Positions 160-24,707 of a stretch of 25,792 nucleotides of DNA are shown here, in pieces; positions within the stretch are counted from its first letter, which is position 1; each line of letters starts with the position of its first letter. The position numbers were made by a program, and so were the translations under genes. The stretch lies in IMG/VR virus record IMGVR_UViG_3300026512_000234, positions 1-25,792 of that record, one strand, 5' to 3'. The stretch comes from a virus. The notes below the pieces were generated by a model. The model saw only the letters and a list, made by a program, of their open reading frames with translations, did no database searches and was not told where the DNA came from.

Positions 160-2697
160 ATGAATAAGTACTACAAAACCATTGATCTTTTTATTCAAAA
201 TCATGATATAGCAAGAAATAATGCAAACTTTATTAGATCTTTACCAGTATTAGAACATGTGGTTACAGGTGAATTAATGAAAGATTACCTCTTTGATGTT
301 ATTTACAAAGGTTTACCTGTAAGAATTCATCATGAGGAAGGTTGGGCTTATCATCACCAAACATTTAAACTTTCACCTTATTGTATTGGTCTATCAGCAG
401 AATCAATAGCTTTTCATGGATTACAATCCAATGCAAAAAATGAAAGAAAAGCAAAACCTCCTAAAAGATTAGAGTCTTTATTTATGCAATGTGCTAATCT
501 TATATGTTTAATTGCTCAAGAAGTTTCAGGTGCAACATCTTTAAATGACATATCAACTATTGCTGCAGGGTATCTTTGGTATCTAGAAACTAATAATATC
601 AAAAAGTATTCAGATTATGAATTGGAAAATATTTGGCAAGAATTTCTTTACAATGTAAACTTACCATTTAGAAGTGGTAATAGTCCATTTTCTAATATTA
701 CATTGGATTTTGGAAAACCAAACTCTAGGCTAAAAACACATCCTGTAACTATAGCAGGTAAACAGCTTGATAAAACTTATAGTGATATACCAGCAGAGTA
801 TTACGATAGGATTAACATAGCATTTATTAAAGCAATGGCTAAAGGTGATGCTGATGGAAATCCATTCACATTTCCATTAATAACCGTTAACATTACAGAA
901 GATTTTGATAGATCAAATAAAGCATGGAGAATGCTACTTAAGGAAAGTGAAAAGTTTGGTGGATTCTATGTACAAAATTATTTGAAGGAACCTTTTGAAA
1001 AAGATTCAATTTACAAGAGAAAGAATCCTTTCATAAAACCATTTGATGAAGGAATGATTTACTCGAATTGTTGTTTTACAGGCGATATGTGTGTTGTTGA
1101 TGTCGAAACATCATCACCAGTTTCGTTTGAAGAATTATATCGTAGATATCAGAATAATGAACGACTACCACTTGTTATGTCATTTGACGAGAATAACAAA
1201 CGTTTCAGAGTATCCAAGATTAATAAGGTGGCTATTACAAGGTATGTTAAAGAATTGTGTTATGTGGAACTAGATAATGGATATGTGGTAAAGTGTACAC
1301 CAGATCATTTGTTTCTCAATGCACGCAACGAATGGAAACCTGCTAAAGATTTGAAGGCTGGAGAAATATTAAAATGGGCTCTGATTGACTATGATGATGC
1401 TTATCTATACATGACTGCATCTGGTGTGAATGACAAGATGATACACAGATATATAGCAGAGTATAAATACAATGTCGAATTGGGTCTTACACGAAAATAT
1501 CAAGTTCATCATAAAAATGGAATAAAAGATGATAATCGTATTGAAAACTTAGAATTATTATCGGCTTCTGAACATGCAAAACTCCATTTTGATAGAGAAT
1601 TCCATAGCAAGAAGGCTAAACAACAATGGACTGATGAAAGTTTCAGAAAATTACATTCTACAAAAACTAAACAACAATGGCAAGATCCGAGATTTAGAAG
1701 CAAAGTTATTGCATCTACAAAATATAAAACCTTACAAACCAAGATACGAAAAACAGCTAGGTATATAGCATCCAAGTATAATCAACCCATTACAGAAGAG
1801 TTGTGGGAAAAACATAGAACCGACGTTTATCGTTATATGCCGCATTACAATGTGATTGTAAATAATTCTCACTGGTTTGATGCGTTAATGGAAGGACAAC
1901 AGCAAGCTGGTGTTGTTAATCATCGTGTGAAATCTGTGAAAATTGTAAAGTTGGATAAGCCGATTCCTGTATATGATATAGAAGTTGATAAATATCATAA
2001 CTTTCTCCTTTATACTGGAGAATCAAAAATTGTTAAGAAAAATTACAAGTATGATACACCGCGAGTATGTAAGATATCAGGTGTAATTGTCCATAACTGC
2101 AGAATGACATTTAACATTGACTTGGTAGAAACGGTTACAGGTTCTAACCCATTCCATTCTGGTGCAGGTGTCGGTGGAATAGGTGTTTATGCTATTAATA
2201 TGAACAGATTACTATTCTTAGCTAAAAAAGATTTTGAGTTACTAAAACATATGCTTGATTATCTTTTAGATGTTGGTGCTAAAGCTTTACAACGAAAAAG
2301 AATGTGGTTAAAGGAACATTGGGAAGATTTATTTCCATATCTATCATTCTATCAACCTAATGATAAATCTTTGTATAACATATTCAGTGTTGTAGGTGTT
2401 CATGAAGGAATGATAAATGCTGGTTTTGAAGATGGATTGTTTAATAATGAAGCAAAAGAATATGCTCATAAAATAGCTCAGTATCTTTATGTAAAACTTG
2501 AAGAATTTATGCATAGAGATGGTGTTTTATATTCACTTGAATATGCTCCATCAGAAAATGCTGCATGTAAGATGGCTGAAAAAGATCTTGCTTTTGCAAA
2601 ACAAATTGAAAAATATTTTAAATCAGATGGTAATATGATTCTTTCAAAAGATAGGGAATTAGACCAATTAACCAAACTTGTATTAAGAGGATGGTAA
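160..2697 (+). CDS. nrdD: Anaerobic ribonucleotide reductase NrdD, N-terminal fragment, interrupted by an intein
   Basis: Class III reductases reduce ribonucleotides to deoxyribonucleotides using a glycyl radical. Starting at ATG 160 the product has 845 residues. The N-terminal extein (about residues 1-304) has NrdD-like sequence and begins without room for the usual ATP-cone regulatory domain. An HNH intein occupies residues 305-646. The C-terminal extein resumes at CRMTF, giving a spliced YSNC-CRM motif that matches the conserved catalytic-cysteine region. It continues through the GGIGVYAINM strand and the LEYAPSENAACKMAEKD motif typical of NrdD. The protein then ends after a short non-conserved tail at LVLRGW. 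The zinc-binding and glycyl-radical domain is absent here and is encoded separately at 3367-3885. Spliced length is about 503 residues. The stop TAA overlaps the nrdG start. The fragment cannot work alone and presumably pairs with the C-terminal fragment. Family is confident; activity is inferred. Confidence 0.9.
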   Translation: MNKYYKTIDLFIQNHDIARNNANFIRSLPVLEHVVTGELMKDYLFDVIYKGLPVRIHHEEGWAYHHQTFKLSPYCIGLSAESIAFHGLQSNAKNERKAKPPKRLESLFMQCANLICLIAQEVSGATSLNDISTIAAGYLWYLETNNIKKYSDYELENIWQEFLYNVNLPFRSGNSPFSNITLDFGKPNSRLKTHPVTIAGKQLDKTYSDIPAEYYDRINIAFIKAMAKGDADGNPFTFPLITVNITEDFDRSNKAWRMLLKESEKFGGFYVQNYLKEPFEKDSIYKRKNPFIKPFDEGMIYSNCCFTGDMCVVDVETSSPVSFEELYRRYQNNERLPLVMSFDENNKRFRVSKINKVAITRYVKELCYVELDNGYVVKCTPDHLFLNARNEWKPAKDLKAGEILKWALIDYDDAYLYMTASGVNDKMIHRYIAEYKYNVELGLTRKYQVHHKNGIKDDNRIENLELLSASEHAKLHFDREFHSKKAKQQWTDESFRKLHSTKTKQQWQDPRFRSKVIASTKYKTLQTKIRKTARYIASKYNQPITEELWEKHRTDVYRYMPHYNVIVNNSHWFDALMEGQQQAGVVNHRVKSVKIVKLDKPIPVYDIEVDKYHNFLLYTGESKIVKKNYKYDTPRVCKISGVIVHNCRMTFNIDLVETVTGSNPFHSGAGVGGIGVYAINMNRLLFLAKKDFELLKHMLDYLLDVGAKALQRKRMWLKEHWEDLFPYLSFYQPNDKSLYNIFSVVGVHEGMINAGFEDGLFNNEAKEYAHKIAQYLYVKLEEFMHRDGVLYSLEYAPSENAACKMAEKDLAFAKQIEKYFKSDGNMILSKDRELDQLTKLVLRGW
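1072..2097 (+). mobile_element. HNH-endonuclease intein inside NrdD
   Basis: The in-frame 342-codon insert begins at Cys in CFTGD (block A), has TPDH at host residues 380-383 (block B), and ends VIVHN followed by Cys (block G, with penultimate His and terminal Asn). A block F-like stretch, PVYDIEVDKYHNFLL, lies near residues 602-617. The central part carries an HNH endonuclease signature (HHKNG, then DNRIENL, then a downstream H..LH) at about residues 450-485. All splicing residues are present, so it is probably active in splicing. It sits so that its +1 residue is the cysteine of the conserved CRM motif in NrdD. CpG-containing codons such as CGA, ACG, TCG and CCG look commoner than in flanking exteins, which fits horizontal entry. 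An unusual ~20-residue extra segment lies between blocks F and G. Confidence 0.92.
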
Positions 2698-3353
2698 TGT
2701 TCTACCACATTGATACTCCTATTACATTCAAAGATCATCCAAATGTATTATCAATGGTGCTTTATCCTACATTTAAGTGTAATTTAAATTGTTATCATTG
2801 CCATAATCGTGAAGCAAGATCCATGTCATTTCCTGTAATGGATGATGATACATTACAAGAAAAATTGGAACATGCATTACTACTAGGTGTTAAATGGATT
2901 ATTATATCTGGTGGTGAACCAACATTATGCAATATTGATACATTAGTTTACTACATTCAATTCATAAAATCCTATGGTTTCAACATACGGATTGATTCAA
3001 ATGGAACAAATCCGGAAAAGATCAGACAATTAATTCCTCATGTAGATGCATTTGCAATTGATATAAAGATTCCTATAAAAGAGTCTTATACTGATGATGA
3101 ATTACGAAGATATTCAACCATCTTATTCTCCATTGATTCGAATCATAAAGGTGTACTATCATACAAAGAAAAACTATTAGATTCAATTCAAATGATAAAT
3201 GCATCTAATGTAAGGAACGATACAATTTACAGGACAGTTGAATATCCATTACTAACTCAAGATGATAAGAATGCTATAAACAACTTCACAAAATCGTTAG
3301 GTATAGACGAAAGACATTATTGGTTACCATTTCAACATATAGAAAATCAATAG
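2697..3353 (+). CDS. nrdG: Anaerobic ribonucleotide reductase activating protein (radical SAM)
   Basis: NrdG uses a 4Fe-4S cluster and S-adenosylmethionine to create the glycyl radical on NrdD. The radical SAM cysteine motif CNLNCYHC lies at residues 28-35, followed by SGGEPT (the GGE motif that contacts SAM) and a conserved IDSNGT strand. Length is 218 residues, longer than minimal NrdG (~155) and with an unfamiliar C-terminal third. An ATG at 2691 is also in frame, but AAGAGG at 2685-2690 abuts it. The ATG at 2697, six bases downstream and overlapping the nrdD-N stop as TAATG, fits better. The gene lies exactly between the two pieces of its own substrate protein. The three genes are close enough for translational coupling. 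Confidence 0.92.
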   Translation: MFYHIDTPITFKDHPNVLSMVLYPTFKCNLNCYHCHNREARSMSFPVMDDDTLQEKLEHALLLGVKWIIISGGEPTLCNIDTLVYYIQFIKSYGFNIRIDSNGTNPEKIRQLIPHVDAFAIDIKIPIKESYTDDELRRYSTILFSIDSNHKGVLSYKEKLLDSIQMINASNVRNDTIYRTVEYPLLTQDDKNAINNFTKSLGIDERHYWLPFQHIENQ

Positions 3354-3366
3354 CGAGGTAATGAAT

Positions 3367-3885
3367 ATGAAAGAAGTACGTATGTATGTTAACGGTGATC
3401 CTTCTACTGGTCGTGTATTTCTAACATCTGGATTTCAAGCACCATTTCAGGAAGGAGACCTATTGAAACAGATTGATGTTAATTCTCATTTCCAATCTTA
3501 TGCAACAGGTGGCTCTATATTCCACCTCTTTACTGCTGAAGAACTTACACCAGAGCAACAAGAAGAATTGATATTCAACATCATTAAGAATTTCCCAATA
3601 CAGTATATGACCAAAACACCATTCCTAACAACTTGTAATGCATGTGGTCATAAAATGGTTGGTAGAAAGACAAAATGTGAAAAATGTGGATCTGAAGATG
3701 TTACACTTTGGAGTAGACCTATTGGATACTTTAGACCTGTTATGAGAGGAAAGGTTTCTAAAGATTTCAAGAATGCAGAATATGTATTTTGGTTGAATGG
3801 CAGAATAGAAGATTTTGCTACAAGAAAAGAAGTACAGAAAGAAGATATTGAAGCTCTTATTGAAGAATTGCATAGTGGAATCTAA
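3367..3885 (+). CDS. nrdD: Anaerobic ribonucleotide reductase NrdD, C-terminal glycyl-radical fragment
   Basis: This 172-residue product carries the part of NrdD missing from the upstream fragment. Numbered from the alternative ATG at 3361, it shows the FLTSGFQAPF strand (equivalent to the YTNS.HLP region of intact NrdD), ATGGSIFHLF (TGG.I.H motif), four zinc-binding cysteines (C92, C95, C106, C109) and SRPIGYFRPV. Gly122 in the last motif is the expected radical-bearing glycine. GAGG at 3355-3358 is only two bases from ATG 3361 but eight from ATG 3367, so 3367 is preferred. It has its own ribosome binding site and no intein-like N-terminus, so it is likely translated independently and must associate with the NrdD-N/NrdG products. 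Family assignment is firm; assembly is inferred. Confidence 0.9.
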   Translation: MKEVRMYVNGDPSTGRVFLTSGFQAPFQEGDLLKQIDVNSHFQSYATGGSIFHLFTAEELTPEQQEELIFNIIKNFPIQYMTKTPFLTTCNACGHKMVGRKTKCEKCGSEDVTLWSRPIGYFRPVMRGKVSKDFKNAEYVFWLNGRIEDFATRKEVQKEDIEALIEELHSGI

Positions 3886-14903: not shown

Positions 14904-15004
14904 ACCTAGATAATCTCTAAGATTTCAAAGATTACCTAGGCCTGGGAGAGTTTCAAACTCTCCCGTTGATCTCCTGAAATCGACTTAATGGCAGACTTCA
15001 GGAG
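14904..15004 (-). ncRNA. Candidate omega/re-RNA scaffold at the tnpB 3' end
   Basis: TnpB nucleases use a guide RNA made from the 3' end of tnpB and the element end. Here that region contains three hairpins: CTCCTGAA (14971-14978) with TTCAGGAG (14997-15004); GGGAGAGTTT-C-AAACTCTCCC (14944-14964, a perfect 10-bp arm pair); and CCTAGATAATCT (14905-14916) with AGATTACCTAGG (14929-14940, one mismatch). Two of them lie within tnpB codons. On the minus strand the guide would then be the flanking sequence complementary to the end of the 14586 gene. Structure is seen; RNA function and ends are inferred. Confidence 0.5.
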
Positions 15005-16279
15005 CAAGGAAAAATGATACATGTTAGATAACTTATAATAAGACTTTACAACAATTGGTCGTGTGAGTTTTCTAATCCATTCTTTAGAAGCTGCAAATGT
15101 TGTTTGCATAGCCTTTTTGGCTATGTTAAGAGCAGCCATAAGATCTGCATGGTAGGTAGCTTTAGAACCTTTAGCTAGAGATCTCTTTCTCGTTACCTTT
15201 TCATTTGTAAAAGGATCGAATTGAGATGTATATGATTCATCAACCAACTTTACTTCAATTCCATATGGTTGTAGATACTGTTTAAGCAATGCTACAAAAT
15301 AACCAAATTTCATAAGTCTAAAAGCTTTATTGAAGAACCTACCAAGATTAGATTTCTCCTGGAATGATCTGAGAATATTCTGACCTATGAAAACATGTTT
15401 GATTTTCTTCTTAATTAGTACATTAGCTATCTGTTTAGCAATTGTTGTATAGAATACTTTCATCAAATTGTGATGATACAACCATAACTTTCTATAAGAA
15501 ATCCAATCTTCTTTGGATTGAAACTCTGCAAGCTTGTCTGTAAGCCAAACCAGATAATGTTTTAAAGGTTTACCATTGATGACTAATGATTCTAGCTTAT
15601 CGGATATCATTGAAACTAGGTTTGTATAGCCTAAATCAATGGATGCAAAACCACTGAGATCTTTTATGTGTAACTCATCTTCTTGTTGTTTATATGTGAT
15701 ATGGAATTGCAAGGCAGTATCTCTAATCCATACAACTGTAACCGTTTTAGCTTTATCAACAAAATTTGGAAGTTTTACCTTGTAGTTGACTCTGTTTCCA
15801 GTTTTGCTCTGACCAAGCTTAATAAGCAATTTGTTATTCATGTGCTTAAGACATTCATAATCAACAATGAATGAAATCTTGTTGATTTGACTAAGCTTTC
15901 TAGGTTTAGGTAATGAAGCTTTTTGACCCTTCTTTCTCAACTTTAGTACAGATTGCACACTCCACAGAACTTGATTAGTGAGAGCTTTAGTCAAACCAAA
16001 TCCTAGTTTTTCTTTATAGAGTTTGTTGAGATCTTCAAGAACATGATTTAGCTTATTATTTCTGAATGGATAAGGTTCACAAAGTTTCCTCACAAGTGTG
16101 TTAAACTTGTATGGTTGATTAGCTATCTCAAAGAAGAGATCAGAATCATATGATTCTAACTCAAGAAAGAAGATTCTTGACAGATTAATGAATTGAGCAA
16201 CAGGAAAGAAAAGTTTATTTTGAAACTTTCTTATTTGACTTTTCTTCTGAGTTTGAATGGTTATTGATCTGTAACTCAT
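14936..16279 (-). CDS. tnpB: TnpB RNA-guided nuclease of the IS607 element
   Basis: A 447-residue TnpB (OrfB) with a C-terminal RuvC-like nuclease. RuvC-I Asp is D215 in FASIDLGYTN, and RuvC-III Asp is D379 in YHADLMAALNIAKK. At the usual RuvC-II position (VFIGQN, ~297-301) there is no Glu, but E348 in VDESYTSQ is conserved in a TnpB subgroup with a shifted glutamate. The four-Cys zinc ribbon normally between YTS and the last Asp is absent (SQFDPFTNEKVTRKR), as in that subgroup. The C-terminus (SGDQRESLKLSQA) is encoded by the hairpin-rich element end. AAGGAG (complement of 16287-16292) serves ATG at 16279. It overlaps tnpA by 65 bases. Likely catalytically competent, and it could help the element persist by cutting empty sites. 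Confidence 0.88.
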   Translation of the reverse strand: MSYRSITIQTQKKSQIRKFQNKLFFPVAQFINLSRIFFLELESYDSDLFFEIANQPYKFNTLVRKLCEPYPFRNNKLNHVLEDLNKLYKEKLGFGLTKALTNQVLWSVQSVLKLRKKGQKASLPKPRKLSQINKISFIVDYECLKHMNNKLLIKLGQSKTGNRVNYKVKLPNFVDKAKTVTVVWIRDTALQFHITYKQQEDELHIKDLSGFASIDLGYTNLVSMISDKLESLVINGKPLKHYLVWLTDKLAEFQSKEDWISYRKLWLYHHNLMKVFYTTIAKQIANVLIKKKIKHVFIGQNILRSFQEKSNLGRFFNKAFRLMKFGYFVALLKQYLQPYGIEVKLVDESYTSQFDPFTNEKVTRKRSLAKGSKATYHADLMAALNIAKKAMQTTFAASKEWIRKLTRPIVVKSYYKLSNMYHFSLLLKSAIKSISGDQRESLKLSQA

Positions 16280-16907
16280 CTACACACTCCTTAAGTTTTT
16301 GAAGTTTTCTTTTATATGATCTAAAACCATACAGTCTTGATGTTATATAGTGGATGAAAGATATCAGTTCATCAGTTAAATCTTTGATTTGCCAATCTTC
16401 TAGATTCTTATCATCATTATCAACAATTTCAATCTTAACATTGAACTTATTGAATATGTATTTGAAGAGATCAAAAGCTATTCTGGACAGTCTATCTTTA
16501 TGATAGATTACAACCTTGGTTACTTCTTTGTTAAACACCAAATCAAGAAGTTTCTTTAAACCTGATCTTCTGAAATTGAATGAGCTAGCTGTATCTTTGA
16601 TTACATAATCAATTGTATATCCTCTTGATATACAATATTGCTTAAGAAGGTTAACCTGATTTTCAAGATTCTTATCGGATCTTTGGCTTACTCTTGCATA
16701 AATTGCTATCTTTTCACATGATGAACTGTTTTGATTTTCAGTATTGTGTGTATCTTCACCCAGTAGTCTGTGAACTTCTGATTCGGGTATACGATAAACA
16801 GACCCAACCTTAAAAGCCTTAATTTTACCTTTCTGACACCATTGCACAATGGTGGTTTGATGCAGACCAAGACGATCTGCTACTTCTTTTGTACCTAAAA
16901 GTTTCAT
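16215..16907 (-). CDS. tnpA: IS607-type serine recombinase TnpA
   Basis: A 230-residue transposase. A MerR-like helix-turn-helix lies at residues ~5-25 (TKEVADRLGLHQTTIVQWCQ), followed by the KVGSVYRIPESEV wing. The serine recombinase domain begins IAIYARVS (~67-74), where S74 is the catalytic serine and R72 the supporting arginine. YHKDRLSR (~135-142) is the conserved KDRL motif. The HTH ahead of the catalytic domain is characteristic of IS607 transposases, the reverse of ordinary resolvases. In-frame starts exist at 16922 (TTG) and 16919, but GGAGGG just ahead of ATG 16907 supports the latter. The C-terminus is Lys- and Ser-rich and overlaps tnpB. Confidence 0.92.
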   Translation of the reverse strand: MKLLGTKEVADRLGLHQTTIVQWCQKGKIKAFKVGSVYRIPESEVHRLLGEDTHNTENQNSSSCEKIAIYARVSQRSDKNLENQVNLLKQYCISRGYTIDYVIKDTASSFNFRRSGLKKLLDLVFNKEVTKVVIYHKDRLSRIAFDLFKYIFNKFNVKIEIVDNDDKNLEDWQIKDLTDELISFIHYITSRLYGFRSYKRKLQKLKECVDELQINNHSNSEEKSNKKVSK

Positions 16908-16938
16908 GATTCCCTCCATCAAACATTTATTTCAAATA

Positions 16939-20071: not shown

Positions 20072-20635
20072 ATGAAAGCACCATGTCTTATTCTTGACAT
20101 TCGATACTATCCATTCATGATTGCAAACTTTCAAAAAGCAATTCAAATGTACTTACGTGGAATCAAATGTCTTGAATTTCATCCATCACAAGTTATTAGA
20201 ACACCACATCAAAAATTTATGGTTCCTATTGTGATGCTTGTTAATTCTGTTATTGATGTCAGACATATTTACGTCACACCATCTAGACAATTAATTTTTC
20301 TAAGAGATGGATATGTTTGCCAATATTGTGGAAGAGAGGTAAGTGAAAAAGAAGCAACAGTTGATCATGTGATACCTAAGTCAAAAGGTGGTCCTTGGTC
20401 TTGGACAAATCTGGTTACTTGCTGTCCAGAATGCAACCAAAAGAAAGGAGATGCTATATGGACACCCTTAAACAAACCAACACGTCCAGAACCATTTATT
20501 GTTACATTCAAGAAGACTATTAAAAAGGTTGATTTGGAAACTTTAGATGTTTGGTTGTCATACTTACCAGCTAAATGGAAGAAATTAGCCTTGACCATTT
20601 ACAACCAAAACAAAGGAGTTCATAATGGCTGTTAA
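20072..20635 (+). CDS. HNH endonuclease
   Basis: A 187-residue HNH nuclease. Residues ~77-125 contain FLRDGYVCQYCG, ATVDHVIPKSKGG and WTNLVTCCPECNQKKG: zinc cysteines C83, C86, C118 and C121, the D98-H99 pair and catalytic-region N122. The N-terminal ~70 residues (PCLILDIRYYPF, AIQMYLRG) match a widespread bacterial and phage HNH family beyond the nuclease core. Such genes are often free-standing nucleases in phages, some of them mobile. It overlaps the glycosylase gene by 11 bases and is its immediate upstream neighbour. A role in DNA processing or in mobilising this locus is possible. GAGGTGAT precedes the ATG. Confidence 0.85.
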   Translation: MKAPCLILDIRYYPFMIANFQKAIQMYLRGIKCLEFHPSQVIRTPHQKFMVPIVMLVNSVIDVRHIYVTPSRQLIFLRDGYVCQYCGREVSEKEATVDHVIPKSKGGPWSWTNLVTCCPECNQKKGDAIWTPLNKPTRPEPFIVTFKKTIKKVDLETLDVWLSYLPAKWKKLALTIYNQNKGVHNGC

Positions 20636-21602
20636 AGGTAAGAATGTATGGGAATGGTATTTTAATTGGTTGTTTGAAGATCCATCTTTAGATCCACCTC
20701 AGGAACTGATTGATTCAAAACAGATAACTCATAAAACTATTTTTACAACATTTCTCATGAATCCTAAACTAACAGATTACCTTGTAGAGCGAATTGCTGG
20801 TTATAACATATATATCATAAGCAAACGTGAATTATTAAAACGGCTCAAACAATTAGTGAAAAAATTCAAAGTTAGTAAACGAGATTTTTGGACATTAGCA
20901 CAAAAGAAACCTCATGAAGATCCATTAGCAAAATGCTTATGGGATCATTTTGAAATCAAACCTCAAGATCTAACATATGTGTATGAAATTCTAGGTTACG
21001 AAAATTGTAAAGCAATGTGTGGTAATGCTAAGAAACTTAAGAAAGATGAAGACATATTTGAATTAATGGCTAAACAAATTGATCATGCTAAACCGACTAA
21101 TCAATCATTACAACAAAGGTTGGAAGAATATAAACAATGGATTATAGATCTACTTGATAATAAACATATATCACCCAAATATGAAGGTTGTACTCATTGT
21201 CCATTAAGAACTCAACCTTTTGTTCCACCTGATTACATCATAGGTGATCCAACTAGGAATGAGGTTGATTTAGTTCTTGTTGGTATGAATCCATATGAAG
21301 AAGAAAGAAAACAAGGCAAACCTTTTGTAGGTAGAAGTGGAAAAGAACTAAGATCAACTTTAAAAGAGTTATGTTCCAACCTTAACATAGTAATTACTAA
21401 TGCTTGTATGTGTTATATTCCTAATAATGGAGATCCTGATATTAAAACACAGGAATGCTGTAAACCTTTACTTCTTGAACAAATTCGTAAACTCAAACCC
21501 AAAGTTGTAATGCCTTTGGGTGCATTAGCAACTAATATGCTAATACCTCTTGATCAAGGTATAACGAAAGTAGCTGGTCAAGAATTTACAATAAGCATTT
21601 GA
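20625..21602 (+). CDS. Uracil-DNA glycosylase, family 4-like, lacking its C-terminus
   Basis: A 325-residue product with an unassigned helical N-terminal domain (~1-185) and an Fe-S uracil-DNA glycosylase domain. Visible motifs are CTHCPLR (C189, C192), LVLVGMNPYEEE (~217-227, in place of the usual GExPG), KPFVGRSG (~232-239), C263 and C279 completing the 4Fe-4S ligands, and PKVVMPLGALAT. The protein stops at ITKVAGQEFTISI. Full-length relatives continue with a strand and the catalytic HPS motif, about 40 residues more. That missing piece is found at the start of the polymerase ORF at 22392. Uracil glycosylases excise uracil from DNA. This fragment alone lacks a key active-site motif, so it should be inactive unless the other piece joins it. 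AAAGGAG serves the ATG. Confidence 0.87.
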   Translation: MAVKGKNVWEWYFNWLFEDPSLDPPQELIDSKQITHKTIFTTFLMNPKLTDYLVERIAGYNIYIISKRELLKRLKQLVKKFKVSKRDFWTLAQKKPHEDPLAKCLWDHFEIKPQDLTYVYEILGYENCKAMCGNAKKLKKDEDIFELMAKQIDHAKPTNQSLQQRLEEYKQWIIDLLDNKHISPKYEGCTHCPLRTQPFVPPDYIIGDPTRNEVDLVLVGMNPYEEERKQGKPFVGRSGKELRSTLKELCSNLNIVITNACMCYIPNNGDPDIKTQECCKPLLLEQIRKLKPKVVMPLGALATNMLIPLDQGITKVAGQEFTISI

Positions 21603-21786: not shown

Positions 21787-22392
21787 ATGATGTTTTTCGA
21801 GCTAGAGAGACTGTTTAGTTTTGGAGAATCAAGTTCTCTCTTATTGCCAGATCCTCATAGACAAGCAATTATATCTGCTGGTAAATTACTAGAAAAGATA
21901 ACGAAACAGAATTACTATGAATGGGAAATTGATCTGTATTTTCTTACAAAAGCAATCTTTCAATATTTCTATATGAAGTTTTCAAAAACTCAAAAGGATC
22001 TATCTATTTATTACCATTACATACAACATGCACAAACTAAATTCATGAATAACAAACTAGAAATTGATGAAGATAAATGCCTTGAATCATTAAAGTCTGT
22101 TGTACATCTTGATCAATTTGCATTCATATATCTTGTTGACATCATAAAACATTTTTGCCCTGATGACAAGTTTCATAAGCTTATACCTTACATTGAATCT
22201 TTTATTGTATTTCGATCTCATTTTGATCCAGATACATATAAGAGAATTTGGTATGGAATTCCGGATACAGAATTCATTCATAAAGCTTATAAACAGAATC
22301 TTCAATCTTCACATGAAATCGTTGAATTCTATTGGAATCATTATCCTCATGATACATGTCCCATTAAACAAGTAATATCAATGGAGGTGTAA
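21787..22392 (+). CDS. Hypothetical protein between the UDG pieces
   Basis: A 201-residue, predominantly helical protein rich in Tyr, Phe and His (NYYEWEIDLYFLTKAIFQYFYMKF). No zinc ligands, HNH, GIY-YIG or LAGLIDADG motif is seen, so it is not an obvious homing nuclease. AGGAG lies just before the TAA of the small upstream gene. Its own TAA overlaps the polymerase ATG (TAATG), so the four genes from the glycosylase onward are translationally coupled. Function unknown. It could be an accessory factor of the replisome or simply an inserted cargo gene. Confidence 0.7.
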   Translation: MMFFELERLFSFGESSSLLLPDPHRQAIISAGKLLEKITKQNYYEWEIDLYFLTKAIFQYFYMKFSKTQKDLSIYYHYIQHAQTKFMNNKLEIDEDKCLESLKSVVHLDQFAFIYLVDIIKHFCPDDKFHKLIPYIESFIVFRSHFDPDTYKRIWYGIPDTEFIHKAYKQNLQSSHEIVEFYWNHYPHDTCPIKQVISMEV

Positions 22393-22499
22393 TGCAAATC
22401 AAAGTTATCCCTAACCTTCATCCATCGGCTGTTATTAGGAATAAAAATAAGTTTGGACCTATCTTTAAACGCGTGTTTGAACAAGTTTCACAATCTCTG
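22392..22499 (+). other. Detached C-terminal segment of the uracil-DNA glycosylase
   Basis: These ~36 codons complete the glycosylase that stops at 21602. The HPS of NLHPSAVIRN is the catalytic motif of family-4 enzymes, and the following helix (FKRVFEQVSQSL) matches their C-terminal helix. Placed after ITKVAGQEFTISI, it restores the order seen in intact enzymes from memory of Thermotoga UDG (ITKVRG, then KVIPTFHPSYLLRN). Confidence 0.85.
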
Positions 22500-24707
22500 A
22501 CTACTAATTATACATCTGAATCTAAAAATCAATCATACGATACATCCATTAATATACAACCAATAATGTATGCTAATTCTGAAACATTTATACCAATTCT
22601 AAGTAGACTAAAAGAGCTTGGATATAAACTTATAGATGTACAAAGATACAAAGATTTTGTTGGTAATGATATTATTGATCAAGGTATATTTGCAAGATTT
22701 TCCAATGGCGAAGATCGTGTGCATGTATTCCTGAATGATGTACGTTTCTTTTACTTTGTTAAGAGAGCTAATCAATCACCAGATCCATTAATTTTTGAAT
22801 CAGATCTTATACAGGAGAAAGGTCCAACTGCCAAATCTATTGTGAATGACAGATATAAAGCTTTAAAAATGGATAAAAACAAGGTTTACTATGATTTTGA
22901 TTTTCAAATCGATGATTGGTTAGTATTTCAAATCAAAAAGATTATACCTGATGAACCAACATATACAATAGGCTTTTTTGATATTGAGGTTCATTCTGAA
23001 GATGGAGTATTCCCAAATGAAAGAGATGCAAATTATCCTATTTCAACTATTTCATTTGTAGTGAAGAATCAATTCTATCAACTTGTCAATAACGAATTAA
23101 TAACTAAAAACAAAATTGATAAGAATAAGATTCATGAATACATTAAACAGAATAATGTATCAATCGAAAACTTTCATCTTATTCATTTTGATAATGAAAA
23201 AGATATGCTTATTCACTTAGCAAAACTTTTTAAAGAATTTCAAATTGATGTATTAACAGCGTGGAACATTTACTTTGATATTAACTACATTGCTAATCGT
23301 TGTAAAAGATTGAATATTGATACGGAAATCTTTTCACCCATCAATAAACCAATGTATCCATCAGGTAAATTTGGATTTCATATAATACCAGGAATAATCA
23401 TAGCAGACCTACTTGAATTATATAAGTCTTATGAAAAACGTGAAATTAGATATACTTTGGATTACATAGTTGAAAAGAATCTTGGTCTCAATAAGGTTAA
23501 GTATGAAGGAACTCTTTCAGACTTACTTCATAATGACCCAAATCTCTATATTGCATATTCAGCTGTTGATACCAAACTTATTCAACAACTAGAAGCTAAG
23601 AAAGGTAATCTTGAATTGCATCTGATGCTAAAAGATCTTTCATGGGTAGCTTATCTTAACAGCTATTCAACATTAGCTCAGATTGATGGTTTGATGTATC
23701 AGTATGCTAAAAAGGAAGGATATGCATTAAGACAAAGACCATTACAAGCTGATAAATCATCTGCATTTGTAGGTGCTTTTGTAAGAGAACCTAGAAAAGG
23801 TTTCATTCCATGGGTTATAGACCTTGATGCATCTTCTATGTATCCATCCATAATGATTTCATTAAACATTTCACCTGAAACATTTGTAGGTTTCATTCAA
23901 GAAGGATCAAATCCAACCTTTATGGAGAAATTCTTACTAACAGATGAAGTTGATGATGAGGAAGTAACTGTTATACTTGATCCTAATAAAGATAAGTTTC
24001 AGCAACCTCAAACAATCCGGATAAAAGTCAAAGATCTTAAAAAGAAAATCTACAATAGTGATTTAACAATTAGCTTCTCAGGTGCTATATTTGATAGATC
24101 AAAGAAAGGATTCTTAATACAAATCCTTGAAGATCTAATATCCAGAAGAAAGAAGTATAAGGAAGAAGCATTAAGACTTCTTGCTAGTAGTGATCCAGAA
24201 GAAAGATCATTAGGAGCAAAATACAATGTTATACAGAAAGCTCTTAAAGTATTAGCTAATGCAATTTATGGAGCTATGGGAAATCAAGCATATAGATTCT
24301 TTGATACAAGAGTATCTGTTACAATTACATTAACAGGACAATATGAAATTAAGTTTGTGTCAGGTATAACAGAAAATCTTATTAAAGCTTTACTTAGCAA
24401 TGAGATTTCTGATGTAGATGAATTCCAATTTGAACTAACTAGAGATGTTGTACATCAAGCAGAAAAGGAGCAACATTATGTATTTTATTCAGATACAGAT
24501 TCATCATTCATTGATATCTATGAGTTATTAGCATTAAACTATCCAAAGATTCATCAAGAATATGAAAAGCTTTCAAATGGAAACATTGATGACTTCTTAG
24601 ATAAGGTCCTACAAGAAGCTAAGGAACGTTTGAAAGATAATAAGCCTCTGGATGATCTTCCTTTGCATAATACAGTATGTAAGATGTTTGCGGAGAAACT
24701 AGATTGA
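22392..24707 (+). CDS. UDG C-terminal piece fused to a truncated family-B DNA polymerase
   Basis: A 771-residue protein. Residues ~1-36 (IKVIPNLHPSAVIRNKNKFG and following) are the glycosylase HPS motif and end helix. The rest is a replicative-type family-B polymerase. The 3'-5' exonuclease sites are D197/E199 (FFDIEV), N292/D296 (NIYFD) and D393 (YSAVDT). Polymerase motif A is D479 (DASSMYPS), motif B is K619/N623/Y626-G627, and motif C is D701/D703 (YSDTDS). The spacing and motif B context resemble T4/RB69-like polymerases. Only 68 residues follow motif C, against roughly 235-275 in E. coli Pol II and T4 polymerases. The KKRY region and thumb are therefore missing and may be encoded downstream of the window. 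GGAGGTG serves the ATG. Confidence 0.88.
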   Translation: MQIKVIPNLHPSAVIRNKNKFGPIFKRVFEQVSQSLTTNYTSESKNQSYDTSINIQPIMYANSETFIPILSRLKELGYKLIDVQRYKDFVGNDIIDQGIFARFSNGEDRVHVFLNDVRFFYFVKRANQSPDPLIFESDLIQEKGPTAKSIVNDRYKALKMDKNKVYYDFDFQIDDWLVFQIKKIIPDEPTYTIGFFDIEVHSEDGVFPNERDANYPISTISFVVKNQFYQLVNNELITKNKIDKNKIHEYIKQNNVSIENFHLIHFDNEKDMLIHLAKLFKEFQIDVLTAWNIYFDINYIANRCKRLNIDTEIFSPINKPMYPSGKFGFHIIPGIIIADLLELYKSYEKREIRYTLDYIVEKNLGLNKVKYEGTLSDLLHNDPNLYIAYSAVDTKLIQQLEAKKGNLELHLMLKDLSWVAYLNSYSTLAQIDGLMYQYAKKEGYALRQRPLQADKSSAFVGAFVREPRKGFIPWVIDLDASSMYPSIMISLNISPETFVGFIQEGSNPTFMEKFLLTDEVDDEEVTVILDPNKDKFQQPQTIRIKVKDLKKKIYNSDLTISFSGAIFDRSKKGFLIQILEDLISRRKKYKEEALRLLASSDPEERSLGAKYNVIQKALKVLANAIYGAMGNQAYRFFDTRVSVTITLTGQYEIKFVSGITENLIKALLSNEISDVDEFQFELTRDVVHQAEKEQHYVFYSDTDSSFIDIYELLALNYPKIHQEYEKLSNGNIDDFLDKVLQEAKERLKDNKPLDDLPLHNTVCKMFAEKLD

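Follow-up and report, generated by a model that had tools for sequence, protein, structure and literature searches.

The class III (anaerobic) ribonucleotide reductase NrdD is split into two separately translated genes in IMG/VR virus record IMGVR_UViG_3300026512_000234, of which positions 1 to 25,792 were analysed here (hereafter the window, a 25.8-kb virus fragment). The larger gene, nrdD-N (160..2697; all coordinates are on the plus strand unless marked minus), encodes the catalytic barrel part with the active-site cysteines. The smaller, nrdD-C (3361..3885), encodes the predicted last part of the barrel, the zinc-type cysteines and the glycyl-radical loop, and nrdG (2691..3353), the gene of the radical-SAM glycyl-radical activase, lies between the two. 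The split is a fixed chromosomal trait of the deep-sea-vent bacterial order Desulfurobacteriales, and the two pieces very probably constitute a functional two-chain reductase.

The protein encoded by nrdD-N has 845 amino acids (aa), or 503 aa once an intein is removed, and lacks an ATP-cone; it matches the Pfam NRDD profile (5.1e-55) at both of its ends, with the intein and its HNH domain in between, and also matches PRK08270. Its assignment was confirmed by a spliced alignment and by the intein-free relatives L013, L015 and L017. The cis-intein (342 aa, in frame, 1072..2097; Pfam Intein_splicing, TIGR01445/TIGR01443) occupies residues 305-646, with boundaries exactly confirmed by intein-free relatives, and carries an HNH homing-endonuclease domain (1441..1578, residues 428-473; Pfam HNH_3, 4.7e-10). 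The intein interrupts the active-site motif YSNC|C between its two cysteines: the first cysteine codon is at 1069-1071, and the second, which is the +1 extein residue in the alignment of the spliced piece with intact NrdD, is at 2098..2100. This pair of cysteines is invariant in 44 N-region sequences. Inteins recur in N-pieces (those of the window, L012, L101, L104, L105, L109 and L153), either splitting the cysteine pair as here or, in L012, L105 and L109, at the SPY|C cysteine. Some of these genes have both of the two sites occupied, and none has an intein at the break.

The activase gene, NrdG2-like by its matches (Pfam Radical_SAM, TIGR02495 NrdG2), overlaps the stop codon of nrdD-N by 7 nucleotides (nt) and encodes the CxxxCxxC motif as CNLNCYHC. 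The product of nrdD-C has 172–174 aa and matches positions 437-554 of the NRDD profile (E=1.9e-22). Its start codon is likelier to be the ATG at 3367 than 3361 because a Shine-Dalgarno sequence, GAGG (3355..3358), stands 8 nt before the former; comparable sites precede the C-piece in most relatives. Alignments place four zinc-type cysteines (C92/C95/C106/C109) at 3634..3687 and the predicted glycyl-radical residue, Gly122 in SRPIGYFRPV, at 3724..3726, where it aligns with the glycine of intact NrdD.

When the spliced N-piece and the C-piece are joined, the alignment covers intact NrdD end to end, including the active-site cysteine pair, and the 3367 product is clearly homologous to the NrdD C-terminus, as the first-pass annotation of the window had proposed. 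In the C-piece, C92, C106, C109 and Gly122 are invariant in 48 relatives and Tyr123 nearly so; C95 is invariant in the five closest, and all four zinc-type cysteines are present in the window and its four closest phage relatives. The system thus has the features by which a class III NrdD is recognized (a catalytic barrel with its cysteine motif, a glycyl-radical loop, four zinc cysteines and a nearby NrdG), save the usual, though arguably not defining, presence of the cysteine and the radical glycine on one polypeptide. That these two residues lie on different polypeptides, another claim of that annotation, is borne out by gene positions and alignment: they are on separate genes in 25 of the 25 loci read (window included), with an identical break, which excludes chance and assembly error. 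Intein profile searches of the window proteins found no intein half at the break, nor is there a frameshift remnant. An intron- or intein-interrupted nrdD would have a splicing insert at the break, and the window has none there, its intein being elsewhere, within the N-piece. Both pieces are under strong purifying selection, the ratio of nonsynonymous to synonymous substitutions (dN/dS, Nei-Gojobori) between close pairs being 0.011–0.045 for N-pieces and 0.008–0.048 for C-pieces, with dS saturated in two further pairs.

The split recurs in other phages. Single-protein scans of IMG/VR with the C-piece and with the N-piece gave no matches; an alignment-based profile search returned six records (L012–L017), and a second profile gave the same six. 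All are split, with C-pieces 51–66% identical to that of the window and a stand-alone C-gene of 167–174 codons; since L013/L014 and L015/L016 are near-identical pairs, they represent four distinct phages. The order nrdD-N, nrdG, nrdD-C is found only in the window and in L013/L014. In L012, L015/L016 and L017, nrdG is upstream and the N-gene stands directly before the C-gene, and in three phages the N- and C-genes are 2–13 nt apart. No second NrdD was found in these phage records, all of which, like the window, may be incomplete. The same search returned 74 other NrdD loci, mostly fused. The exceptions examined among them were rejected as true protein splits, as they proved to be intron-like interruptions or in-frame TAG codons (L027). 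In five rejected loci from crAss-like phages (L071, L073, L076, L082 and L088), the gene is interrupted within the TDGG/GSAAH region by an insert of about 1 kb with an endonuclease-like open reading frame (ORF), likely a group I intron.

The same arrangement of two genes is found on bacterial chromosomes. A scan of GTDB contigs with a profile of close relatives yielded 11 loci, all from metagenome-assembled genomes (MAGs) of Desulfurobacteriaceae, with C-pieces 79–86% identical to that of the window. Each lies beside ordinary chromosomal genes in the order nrdG, nrdD-N, nrdD-C, and each of the 11 genomes has this one NrdD locus, split, and no intact copy. NrdD is present in 24 of 24 Desulfurobacteriales genomes; 22 have the window-type split (a count that includes G030 and G021, whose contigs end inside the N-piece and the C-piece, respectively) and two have another type, in which the glycyl loop alone is separate. 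The window-type split is also on contigs G022:C1 (1,541,968 bases) and G028:C2 (1,682,965 bases), which we take to be the chromosomes of Desulfurobacterium thermolithotrophum BSA and Thermovibrio ammonificans HB-1 (PMC3368423, PMC3570795), thereby placing it in finished genomes of isolates. The first-pass annotation had presented the split as a phage oddity; phages do have it, and that description is incomplete, because a bacterial order carries it, fixed, on its chromosomes and has it in common with its phages.

In a maximum-likelihood tree built on the joined N and C sequences, all split NrdD fall into one clade (support 100/99), showing that the split had one origin. The bacterial sequences form one clade inside it (100/98), and the phages form a grade around them, with the window nearest the bacteria. 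This topology would be consistent with a split that began in phages; the branches leading to the phages are long, however, and support is moderate at several steps. The joined NrdD of the window is 81% identical to Desulfurobacteriales NrdD, and this sequence similarity makes a member of the order the probable host of the window phage.

The closest intact relatives found are fused NrdD sisters in other Aquificota (L142–L148), which are 44–50% identical to the N-piece in its first part and 41–44% identical to the C-piece and share the same C-terminal tail. Their reading frame is unbroken and has a short loop like KYKLYREYWLGKVDGIAPYVKGSPEGSGVFLTAGF at the break position, whereas the alignment of the split lineage shows there an N-piece tail like ISKDPYLNLFIKEAIVKFGEKIFELVEV, a stop codon, a new start codon and then KVRPKMYVNGDPSTGRVFLTSGF. 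This extra tail of the N-piece (window 2590..2694) is absent from the fused sisters. It had been overlooked: the N-piece was said to stop just after PSENAACKMAEKD and actually continues for 36 residues into this tail, a conserved predicted helix in the relatives. In the AlphaFold2 model of the L013 N-piece (516 aa; mean predicted local distance difference test score [pLDDT] 85), the tail helix at residues 489-507 is confidently predicted, with ten-residue blocks at about 91–98. The model superposes on residues 34-517 of Thermotoga maritima NrdD (4con) with a Z score of 25.0 and a root-mean-square deviation of 2.8 over 411 residues. The AlphaFold2 model of the C-piece has a mean pLDDT of 84, and its leading structural matches are NrdD chains; one class I NrdE chain aligns with its residues 25-88 (Z 4.5, 57 residues). 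Both the NrdD matches and the NrdE alignment fit a C-piece that, as modelled, would supply the last barrel strands together with the zinc site and the radical loop.

Because the radical glycine and the catalytic cysteine are on separate proteins, the enzyme is presumably assembled from parts, and non-covalent assembly, as suggested in the first-pass annotation, is kept as the simplest reading of two separate pieces. We propose that NrdD-N, once it had spliced out its own intein, would make up the greater part of the catalytic barrel and contribute the active-site cysteines. NrdD-C would then dock on it, completing the barrel, holding the zinc site and setting Gly122 beside the active-site cysteine. 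NrdG would generate the radical on the glycine of NrdD-C, probably once the complex has assembled, and the radical would cross the chain boundary to the cysteine at every turnover. The break itself corresponds to a loop in the fused ancestor, the N-piece later gaining the C-terminal helix, which probably aids docking.

Several points weigh against this reading. Complex formation, inter-chain radical transfer and turnover are all steps that we infer. The window is a 25.8-kb fragment, so the remainder of this particular phage genome could hold an intact nrdD. The fit of the C-piece model to NrdD is moderate (Z about 5–6), as is expected when part of a fold is modelled in isolation. One alternative, that the pieces are decaying remnants or that the break is an assembly error, could draw on the truncated look of two other window genes, those of the family B polymerase and of the uracil-DNA glycosylase. 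It is nevertheless barely credible, and refuted for the family as a whole, given an identical break in dozens of independent genomes, isolate chromosomes included, dN/dS far below 1 for both pieces, the retention of all catalytic, zinc and radical residues, and the lack of an intact copy in the seven phage records and 11 host MAGs checked.

Alternatively, a covalent link between the pieces might be made, whether by stop-codon readthrough, by frameshifting, by an RNA intron or by protein trans-splicing, and so yield an ordinary single chain. Inteins are common in the N-piece, and in five loci (L015, L108, L157, L158 and L159) the C-gene is in frame and only 3–6 nt past the N stop codon. Start codons were assigned by rule, which may put single spacings wrong by a few codons; even so, the distance from N stop to C start ranges from -23 to +830 nt, with nrdG in between in two phages, the C-gene is found at each of the frame offsets 0, 1 and 2, and TAA, TAG and TGA are all used as stops. 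As frame, spacing and stop vary in this way, readthrough is no general solution, possible as it is in the five in-frame loci. Most C-genes, moreover, have their own start codon and a GGAGG-like Shine-Dalgarno sequence, the break has no intein match, and the truly intron-interrupted nrdD genes of crAss-like phages differ in having a long insert with an endonuclease ORF. Covalent joining is accordingly very improbable. Somewhat less so, though still unlikely, is the suggestion that the order N-piece, activase, C-piece was selected as favouring assembly during translation. The window genes are tightly spaced and L013/L014 have the same order, but every other split locus read, whether from a phage or a bacterium, has nrdG upstream and the N-gene adjoining the C-gene, often overlapping it. 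The two nested NrdGs of the window and of the L013/L014 phage are, furthermore, only 33% identical, NrdG being far more variable than NrdD, and the nested arrangement may therefore have arisen twice or drifted.

Compared with known systems, the two-chain NrdD resembles intact NrdD (T. maritima, 4coi/4con; phage T4, 1h7b; Prevotella copri, 8p2s) in fold, cysteine pair, zinc cysteines, glycyl-radical loop and NrdG partner, and differs in being two polypeptides rather than one, the break falling near T. maritima residue 517, ahead of the final barrel strands. The usual view of glycyl-radical enzymes is that a single folded chain must contain both the catalytic cysteine and the radical glycine; the known exception is YfiD, as a repair part. 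YfiD/GrcA binds O2-cleaved pyruvate formate-lyase and is hardly activated without it (PMC8683613), which by analogy suggests that activation here may need the assembled complex of both pieces. In both systems the glycyl loop is on a separate small protein and the cysteine on a larger chain; YfiD, however, is a spare part for the cleaved enzyme, the full-length form of which is also present (PMC8683613), whereas the genomes checked have no other source of the glycine than NrdD-C, which in addition bears zinc cysteines and predicted barrel strands. The C-piece matches NRDD only, with no Pfam Gly_radical match at E up to 1, and this speaks against kinship with YfiD/GrcA.

Ribonucleotide reductases encoded in pieces are known from other classes. 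The class II enzyme NrdJa/NrdJb of Pseudomonas is encoded in two genes. A two-gene NrdJ has also been reported in Thermus phage phiYS40 (PMC3653736); in these class II systems, too, the catalytic chain is divided between two adjacent genes, but the enzyme uses adenosylcobalamin and no glycyl radical, so its second chain has no radical residue. The split NrdA of Aeromonas phage Aeh1, reported to be functional (other split phage reductase genes have been reviewed alongside it; PMC3653736), likewise has its catalytic subunit encoded in pieces, but it is of another class, has another break and is linked to an inserted homing endonuclease; the split NrdD is fixed across a bacterial order and has no insert at the break. 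For phages, split nrdD genes have been explained by introns, inteins or fragmentation, as in phage phiAS4, in which nrdD is in three fragments compared with a 97% identical intact relative (PMC3653736).

A second type of NrdD split was found in other Aquificota, with the glycyl loop alone on a protein of 51–61 aa. In G130 (L136:177-2460) and G133 (L137:978-3246, minus strand), a 703-aa NrdD ends after the zinc-type cysteines, an overlapping gene of 54–61 codons carries only the glycyl loop (KTLQYTRVVGYYRPIESFNKGKKGEF), and nrdG follows. In G019, NrdD (L139:1356-4832, minus strand) stops before the loop, and a 51-codon loop gene (ARVVGYHRPTMNYNSGKK) is on another contig (L140:1558-1713), directly before nrdG. 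This second type is consistent with class III reductases taking the radical loop in trans. In G088, an 87-codon ORF (L141:2176-2439, minus strand) has an intact-looking NrdD C-terminus, and no N-part was found in the genome; it may be a remnant or a further radical domain that stands alone.

The window otherwise contains tail-fibre-type genes, a T4-like family B polymerase and an IS607-type element (serine resolvase and TnpB-like OrfB; 14936-16922, minus strand) among phage structural genes. The element has only weak matches in Aquificota and provides no host link. The uracil-DNA glycosylase (20625-21602) lacks its C-terminal part, and the polymerase (22392-24707) ends about 75 residues past motif C; neither the window nor four related records yielded the missing C-terminal part of the polymerase. 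L094 has glycosylase and polymerase as a single intact protein of 1311 aa, and in L092 an 858-aa fusion ends before motif C, so this gene, too, appears to be broken up in some of these phages.

The components of the system are known; the two-gene arrangement appears to be new. Among open-licence papers, we found no published account of a fixed two-gene NrdD, of a separate NrdD glycyl-radical domain, of the glycyl-loop-only split or of ribonucleotide reductase in Desulfurobacterium or Thermovibrio; the enzyme is unmentioned in the main texts of the D. thermolithotrophum and T. ammonificans genome papers and of the physiology papers on T. ammonificans and D. thermolithotrophum HR11.

A bacterial order and its phages thus appear to run a core DNA-precursor enzyme as a permanent two-chain enzyme. 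This is directly testable, as cultures exist of both type strains, D. thermolithotrophum and T. ammonificans. With the radical-bearing part accessible alone, it becomes possible to ask if NrdG acts on it when free or when docked, if damaged parts are exchanged, and what minimum of protein can carry the radical. More speculatively, and on balance doubtfully, the small radical chain may be exchangeable, as a modular radical subunit that evolved at least two times in class III reductases, phages bringing their own set. If so, damage by O2 would cost only the 19 kDa NrdD-C, or the loop protein of 51–61 aa, and the cell would need to replace that small chain alone while keeping the catalytic one.

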